Program-made: the position numbers and the translations under genes
The notes under the pieces: model-generated
What the model was told of the DNA's origin: nothing
The model's input: the letters and a program-made list of their open reading frames with translations, nothing else
The model's database searches: none
Assembly (NCBI RefSeq): GCF_004343305.1
Contig: NZ_SMAF01000002.1
Span: 80,137-144,136 of the forward strand
Origin: Pseudofulvimonas gallinarii
Lineage (GTDB): Bacteria > Pseudomonadota > Gammaproteobacteria > Xanthomonadales > UBA2363
Length of the DNA: 64,000 nt
Direction of reading: 5' to 3'
Shown here: in pieces, positions 52,295 to 54,972 of the stretch
Position numbering within the stretch: the stretch's first letter is position 1
Layout of the letters: the number at the start of each line of letters is the position of its first letter

Positions 52295-54972
52295 CTACGG
52301 GGGTGGAAGGTCCCGCGCCGGCGCAGACGTCTCGAACCCGCTTGCGAAAATCGTGTCGACCTCGACTTCGAAGGCACCGACATCGCAGGCGCGCGTGCCA
52401 TCGCCATCGCCATCCTGCGGCCGCGCCACGCCCCGCTGGTCCGCCGTGGCACAGTGCGCCTCACGTCCACGGTCGATGGCACTGGCGCCCTGTGCTGGAC
52501 GGTGCGTCTGCGTGAATCCGCCGTGATCGGCCAGCGCCAGCAGCGGCGGCACCACGTCGAGCTGGTCGTCCGGCTGCGGCGCGAACTGCTGGCAGCGCTG
52601 CGCATCGCCAATGATGTTGCCGCCCATCGAAAAGCCGTTGTTGCAGTCCGGAACGCCTGCAACCGTCTGCGCGAAATTGCCGGCCAGGTAGGTGTTCGCC
52701 AGATAGGTCAGGCCGGCACCGCCATGGACGTCGCGTATGCCGCCGGTCAGCGGAAGCGGCATGCCAGCGACGCCGCCGTTGAGCGTGATGGTGCCGTTGA
52801 GGATGTCCAGCCGCGAGAAGCCGTCGTTGGAGATCGCCCCGACCGCGCCGCCGCCGTTTCCCGTCAGCGTCACGTTCTCCAGGAGCGCCGCCGCACCGAT
52901 GTCGAAAACCATCGCCCCGACATTGCCCCCCCCTGATTGCCGGCAACCAGGCATCGACGCAGAACCGTGCGGCCGCAGCGCGCGGACAGGGCGCCGGCCA
53001 GCAGGGCCACATTGCCGCTGATCTCGCAATCTTCCAGATCTAGGGTGGCGTCCGGATCCTCTTCGCCGGTTGCATCACAGGCGCCTGCCAGCGTTCCCAC
53101 CGCGATGGTCGCACCCCATCCCTCATCCACGTTTCCAAGGATCCGCACATGACGCCCTGAAACCCGTCCCCCCACAGCCAAGGCCGTCGCCGCCACGGGT
53201 CCGTCACTCCGGTGGTCACGCAGGATGATGTCCTCGAGATCGACCTGGGCGCCGGCCGCGACCTGCAGGCCTGCGCCGGCTGCGAACCTGCCATTGCGCA
53301 AGGGGACACCGCGCAGGGCGACATGACGCCCACCGCCCACATCATGGACATCGATGACGCGATCCAGCGCGCCGGCATCGATCGTCGTCAACGCCGAGCC
53401 GGCGCCGAGCAGCACCAGGTCATCGGTGACGTCGAGGTCGCCCGTCGCCGCCGCATCCTCGGATTGGCCGGCCAGCCCGAACACGAAGATGCCCGGCGGC
53501 AACGCGACGATATCGACACCGGGCCGCGCGTTGGCCTCATGGATCGCGGCGCGCAGGCTGCAGCGCTGCCGCCCTTCGTCGCAGTGCCCATCGCCGGGAA
53601 GGATGTCCGCGCTGTCGTCCGGCGTGTTGACGGTGAAGGTCGGCTGCGGCGACTGCATCTCGACCGCACCGACATCGCAGCCGGGGTCGTCGTCGCCATC
53701 ATGGTCGAACGCCCGCGGCTGTCCGCGCTGGTCGGTGCGAAGACAGCCGGCCGCCCAGCCGTCATCGATCGCCTGGGCATGCGGAAGATGGCTGCGCGTG
53801 AAGCCACCGTGGTCGCCGAGCGGACCCAGCGCCACTGCGACCTCCAGGCGATCGTTGGGCAGCGACTGCAGGCCGCTGCAGTCGCCATAGTGGTTGCCGC
53901 CACCTGACGAAACCACGCCGGCGCAGTCATCGGCCAGCAGGCCGGGGCCGTTGCCGGCGAGGATGGAATTGGCCAGGCTGGTCTGGCCGGGGGGCGCATT
54001 GAGGTCACGGATGCCGCCGACCTGCGATGCCGTGCCACTGCGTGGCCCGTTCGCGGTGACGGTACTGCCCTGCACTTCCACCCGGGCGCCCACCGCCACC
54101 AGCACGGCACCCGGATCGCCGCGGTTGCCGCTGATCGTGACGTTCTCCAGCCGGGCCTCGACGCCGGCCGCGAGTTGCAGCGCGCCCGCGCCCGAAGCCG
54201 TGTTGCCGCTGAGCAGGCTTCGCCTCAGCACCACCCCGGCCGGACCGGCCTGGATCGCGCCGGCGGCGTCGGCGGAATTGCCACTGATCTCGCTGTCGTC
54301 CAGCAGCAGGCAGGCACCCTCATCGCCTGGCTGCGACCCGACCCGGATGGTGACCGAACCCGCTGCCGCCGGCGTTTCCTTGTCCCCGTTGTCGCGGATC
54401 CGGACGTATCGGCCTTGCACGCAACCGCGAACGTCGAGCGCAATGCCGCCAGGGCGATCGCGCATCCGGTGTCCGGCCACCTCGACCTCCTGCAGGTGCA
54501 GGGCCGCGCTGTCGCCGACCCTGACGCCGGCACCGCCGCCCGACGCGCTGCCGTCAAGCTGACCGTTCAACACCGCAAGGCGTCGCAGGCGCAGCGTCGC
54601 ACCGGCATGGACCTCGAAGACGCGGTCCTGGGCCGCGCCATCGATGCGCGTCAGTGCCGGACCGGCACCAATCACCGTGACAGGGTGAAGGATGTCGAGG
54701 TCGCCGCTGTGCGCGGCATCCTCGCCGGTGCCGGCGAGCGCCAGCAGGAAATCGCCGGCGGGAAGATGGATGATCGCTGGAACCGGCGCCGGCGCGACAT
54801 TGGCCTCCATGACCGCCGCGCGCAGGCTGCAGCGCCCGGCGCTGTCGGCACAGAGGCCATCGGCGGGTGTCGCATCAGGCGTATCCTCGACCGTGTTGAC
54901 GAAATACTGGGCGGCCTGTGCTGGAGTGCACAGAACGACCACGCCCAACAGGCACACCTTCCAACCGGCCAT
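52295..54972 (-). pseudogene. Secreted parallel beta-helix protein with CSLREA-type domains, frame broken at a G8 tract
   Basis: Starts [22 protein letters not shown] (signal peptide). Two similar halves each begin with a CSLRAA segment (RCSLRAAVMEANV; RCSLRAAIHEANA), the CSLREA-type entry to a right-handed beta-helix, followed by rungs such as LENVTISGNRG. The first frame runs to 52870. At a run of eight G (52933-52926) it leaves the frame in which the helix continues (ENVTLTGNGGGAVGAI) to a stop at 52295, with a C-terminal IFASGFE. Nine G would give one 892-residue protein. These proteins are exported and often act as adhesins or surface enzymes; the function here is unknown. Confidence 0.82.
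52926..52933. repeat. Homopolymer C8 (G8 on the coding strand) at the frame break
   Basis: Eight identical bases inside the beta-helix gene. With eight the reading frame ends about 20 codons later; with nine it continues for 212 codons. This is the kind of tract used for slipped-strand phase variation, but it is also a common place for sequencing error. Confidence 0.9.

Follow-up and report, generated by a model that had tools for sequence, protein, structure and literature searches.

Frame break at a G8 tract in an accessory gene for a tandem beta-helix protein: slippage indel, phase-variable switch or assembly error?

When a gene for a secreted protein changes frame exactly at a run of eight G, the run may be a switch under selection, a single lesion or an error of the consensus sequence. 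This question is raised by a gene on the minus strand of a window of 64 kb, the whole stretch of DNA that was analysed (G000:C2:80137-144136), which is part of a genome of 3.45 Mb in 57 contigs with its nearest matching sequences in Lysobacterales. The tract reads as C8 on the plus strand.

The interrupted gene and its protein

The coordinates of the gene and its parts are given in Table 1. From its ATG the gene as assembled is read to a stop at 52870-52872, giving a product of 700 aa. Homology to relatives tracks the upstream frame until ...VLRRCLVAGNQ, immediately before the tract, where this frame reads CAG GGG GGG GCA. After the tract homology picks up at once (GGGNVGAMVFDIGAAALLENVT...) in the -1 frame, which stays open to the stop at 52295. 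The codon score switches frame at the same spot, and break and tract coincide to within one codon. The original prediction that coding sequence is intact on either side of the tract was thus borne out by homology and codon score alike. An early stop, as expected for eight G, was found 20 codons past the tract, and the proposed full length of 892 residues was recovered as 680 codons before the tract plus 212 after it. The assembled product lacks the last rungs of the helix, the second choice-of-anchor Q domain and the IFASGFE tail. The latter had been described as C-terminal; it is present in the sequence but near-terminal, with 11 residues (TSAPARDLPPP) still to follow. The neighbouring topoisomerase-like gene is divergently oriented, the two starts being 185 bases apart.

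Table 1. Features of the interrupted gene and its neighbour (positions in the window)
Feature	Position	Strand	Basis or remark
Interrupted gene in full, both frames taken together across the G8 tract	52295..54972	minus	sequence and homology
700-aa ORF as assembled: 680 native residues and 20-residue out-of-frame tail	52870..54972	minus	
Out-of-frame tail GGAMSGRWFSTSVRRRSWRT and stop	52870..52932	minus	sequence
G8 tract, site of the frame break	52926..52933	minus	
Downstream frame of 212 codons, from the last beta-helix rungs up to the stop	52295..52933	minus	
Probable Sec signal peptide, 21 residues	54910..54972	minus	judged by eye from sequence
Unit 1: CSLREA motif, right-handed beta-helix, choice-of-anchor Q	53647..54906	minus	NCBIfam, AlphaFold, Foldseek
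Choice-of-anchor Q, copy 1	53653..53832	minus	NF041518, E 7e-12
CSLREA motif of unit 2	53530..53637	minus	position from unit alignment
Choice-of-anchor Q, copy 2, missing from the assembled product	52361..52546	minus	NF041518, E 1e-18
IFASGFE near-C-terminal tag	52331..52351	minus	
Topoisomerase IV subunit B-like gene (our reading)	55158-57044	plus	89-90% identical in two congeners

As judged from its sequence, the gene is a tandem duplication that encodes a signal peptide, two units of CSLREA motif, beta-helix and choice-of-anchor Q domain, the IFASGFE motif and the 11 final residues. This is concluded because the NCBIfam matches come twice and because an alignment of unit 1 with the two pieces of unit 2 shows about 40% identity. 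The CSLREA motif (TIGR04214) was matched in two stretches of the 700-aa ORF, the best at residues 25-58 near the mature N-terminus, with 45 bits against a curated cut-off of 25. Choice-of-anchor Q (NF041518) was matched at residues 381-440 of the same ORF in unit 1 with 45.4 bits, and downstream of the tract with 66.9 bits (cut-off 25 in both cases). Pfam gave no match at E 0.001 for the interrupted gene or its two neighbours.

The AlphaFold model of unit 1 is all-beta with a pLDDT of 73, its C-terminal 75 residues being poor and unreliable, and the top Foldseek matches in the PDB are right-handed beta-helix proteins. Together with the signal peptide read by eye, these matches uphold the prediction of a secreted beta-helix protein. 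Rhombotarget A of Acinetobacter is, as its name implies, a rhombosortase target with a GlyGly-CTERM end. It is the best Foldseek match to the model (PDB 9cdu, 9cdv; E 1e-5, TM about 0.43) and also gives a weak profile match (E 0.004). The likeness lies in the right-handed beta-helix; identity is only 17%, and in place of GlyGly-CTERM the protein described here ends in IFxxGFE with no hydrophobic segment.

Accessory setting and the tract in relatives

The gene lies in a species-specific stretch of 7.7 kb (47439-55158), flanked by blocks that are conserved in both congeners, in which the same gap holds 2.4 and 5.1 kb of other sequence. No orthologue of the interrupted gene was found in either congener. 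From this comparison of sequences the gene is considered accessory, and it appears dispensable because it is sited where the congeners carry other sequence between conserved blocks. The same stretch holds a neighbouring gene for a secreted-looking protein on the minus strand (51006-51881), which is without Pfam or NCBIfam match and belongs to an expanded uncharacterised family: 16 matches to it were found within the same genome, and 7-12 in each congener. A truncated paralogue of it at C13:24301-24946 (63-67% identical) is frame-broken, and its break is not at a homopolymer; decay of accessory genes therefore occurs in this genome, also without homopolymers.

Comparisons of the tract itself were made with single-unit CSLREA/choice-of-anchor Q proteins of Lysobacterales, e.g., from Lysobacteraceae SCN 69-320, Dokdonella fugitiva and Rhodanobacteraceae UBA703. 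They share the domain order of the interrupted gene and are about 45% identical to it in unit 1 and 49-60% in the downstream piece, and most of them end in a related tail (IFANGFD, LFVDGFE, LFADGFD, VFADGLD). Unlike the interrupted gene, they consist of a single unit, and their open frame contains no G tract. Each of the eight aligned relatives, of which two appear to be one sequence and at most seven are independent, has one CSLREA motif and an open frame of 481-581 codons. At the position of the tract they read, e.g., NQANSGAGAF, NEATGGAGAF or NNAARFSGAL, and the longest G/C run within their genes is at most 5, as against runs of 8, 6, 6 and 5 in the interrupted gene. In the sister unit 1 the frame is open and the matching place is free of G runs. 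In the nearest relative the loop is of the same length as that encoded by an in-frame version of the tract. A comparison with relatives had been proposed as a check of the switch; the tract is kept in neither the sister unit nor the aligned relatives, and a conserved tract was thus rejected. A scan of genome contigs for strains of the same species gave matches from other genera only.

Long G/C runs are rare in the genome as a whole. Only 15 runs of at least 8 were observed in 3.45 Mb vs. about 144 expected under a dinucleotide model, i.e., they are about tenfold rarer. Most of them are intergenic, and those on contigs C8 and C13 lie near ORF ends. The only other one clearly within a gene is an eight-base tract on contig C40, which lies in frame inside an intact ORF of 1112 codons. 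A genome-wide set of tract-bearing genes was therefore rejected, as most of the long tracts are intergenic and the C40 ORF is intact. By far the longest G/C run found in the genome, one of 16 G at C1:359215-359230, is apparently non-coding. Shorter runs were checked in 864 kb (25% of the genome; 800 kb taken as stretches plus the window of 64 kb), where the frame was kept at all 21 coding G/C runs of 6-7 and changed at only one G/C run of at least 6, the G8 tract. A further candidate, a C6 run at C4:74136, proved to be a gene junction and not a true frame change.

Explanations of the frame break

The break is best explained, with a probability of roughly 0.55, by slippage that recently left an indel in an accessory gene, with no evolved switch; the gene encodes a secreted tandem beta-helix protein that is probably attached to the surface. 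The G run may have grown by chance in a variable, glycine-rich loop of unit 2, and a slippage indel in it would then have put the gene out of frame, with the 700-residue product losing copy 2 of choice-of-anchor Q as well as the tail tag; we infer both that the indel is real and that no switch has evolved. The break would be recent because the downstream 212 codons keep their homology (56-60% identical to the nearest relatives) and the codon usage of the host, and carry no second lesion. The truncated product is probably non-functional or mislocalised, and probably not displayed normally, as it lacks copy 2 of choice-of-anchor Q and the tag.

Alternatively, slipped-strand mispairing at the G tract could alternately give the full-length and the truncated form of the gene, and hence toggle the display of the tail-tagged protein. 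In favour of such a switch, every other homopolymer in the window is shorter than the tract, which lies inside a gene for a secreted protein with coding sequence on both sides, and the frame changes at it, as a repeat tract that toggles the frame by its length would require. The absence of decay in the downstream part would also fit a gene that is often in frame. There are precedents for G runs of this size: in Campylobacter jejuni, which is without functional mismatch repair, G8 tracts do switch and mutate in both directions with a bias toward insertion, and tract switching rates range from 1e-4 to 1.6e-3 per division (PMC8355987), and homopolymers of about 7 G differ among isolates of the high-GC Mycobacterium tuberculosis (PMC11898584). 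Like the poly-G contingency loci of Campylobacter and Neisseria, the present locus has a G homopolymer within a gene for a surface protein, one base off frame. However, it is unlike them in that the G8 tract is alone and not conserved, mismatch repair is present (mutS was found intact in the genome) and there is no set of tract-bearing genes. Also against a switch are the lack of the whole gene from both congeners and the tenfold avoidance of long G/C runs by the genome, where the other tracts are mostly intergenic and the one more that is clearly in a gene is in frame. Furthermore, G8 falls short of the minimum of 9 that was used for G tracts with PhasomeIt in a phasome survey of Neisseria (PMC5953494). 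Switching at the G8 tract is thus unlikely. The original prediction of a phase-variable secreted beta-helix gene was right in that the frame break lies exactly at the tract, but the switch was not supported by the comparisons. It is likewise doubtful that a genuine contingency switch has newly arisen here, in a high-GC lineage, to turn display of the tagged tandem beta-helix protein on and off. To our knowledge, poly-G phase variation has not been described in this lineage, and a literature search for homopolymer phase variation in Xanthomonas returned nothing relevant.

It could also be that one base of the homopolymer was miscounted in sequencing or assembly and that the gene is actually intact. 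Homopolymers are where consensus indels are commonest, and the remainder of the gene is undamaged. Against this stand the 21 intact coding runs of 6-7, with no other true frame change in the 864 kb, and the eight-base tract on contig C40, which is in frame. In addition, the conserved genes of the window showed no clear frame break against the two congeners, the overlapping-frame matches in that comparison being antisense or alternative-frame ORFs as judged by eye. A systematic assembly error is therefore unlikely, and an error at this single site is given a low probability too. Programmed recoding, in which truncated and full-length products would be made together, either by ribosomes slipping by -1 on G GGG GGG or by slippage in transcription, is very improbable: the heptamer does occur in the upstream frame and the coding sequence beyond the tract is in the -1 frame, but RNA folding downstream is no better than in shuffled sequences (z 0.05 and -0.94), giving no sign of a stimulatory structure, and the arrangement is kept in no relative.

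The IFxxGFE tail tag

The near-terminal motif of the interrupted gene is one of many in this genome. In a degenerate DNA search IFxxGFE was found in 35 copies vs. none for a reversed-pattern control. It lies within 12 residues of an in-frame stop in 24 of the 31 copies examined; the remaining copies are at apparent domain borders, one of them shortly after an apparent signal sequence. The carriers are unrelated and include an M36-peptidase-like choice-of-anchor J protein, CSLREA/choice-of-anchor Q proteins, an esterase-like protein, a subtilase, a sulfatase and proteins with RCC1 repeats, FG-GAP repeats or DUF11. Across 299 genomes of the order, several families carry about 20-80 copies and others almost none, and in other orders of the class the motif is near the control level. 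In the collection of papers searched, the string IFADGFE did not occur, and no description of the tag was found. Its placement after choice-of-anchor domains suggests that IFxxGFE is a sorting or attachment signal, possibly an undescribed one.

If the G8 tract did switch, poly-G phase variation would be extended to a high-GC lineage with mismatch repair. With a recent slippage indel as the preferred reading, the locus is a cautionary case, since a frame break at a homopolymer is often a single lesion, and it is the comparison with homologues that tells whether a tract is kept. The tail tag may matter more than the frame break, as within one order it is found on dozens of unrelated secreted proteins in each genome.
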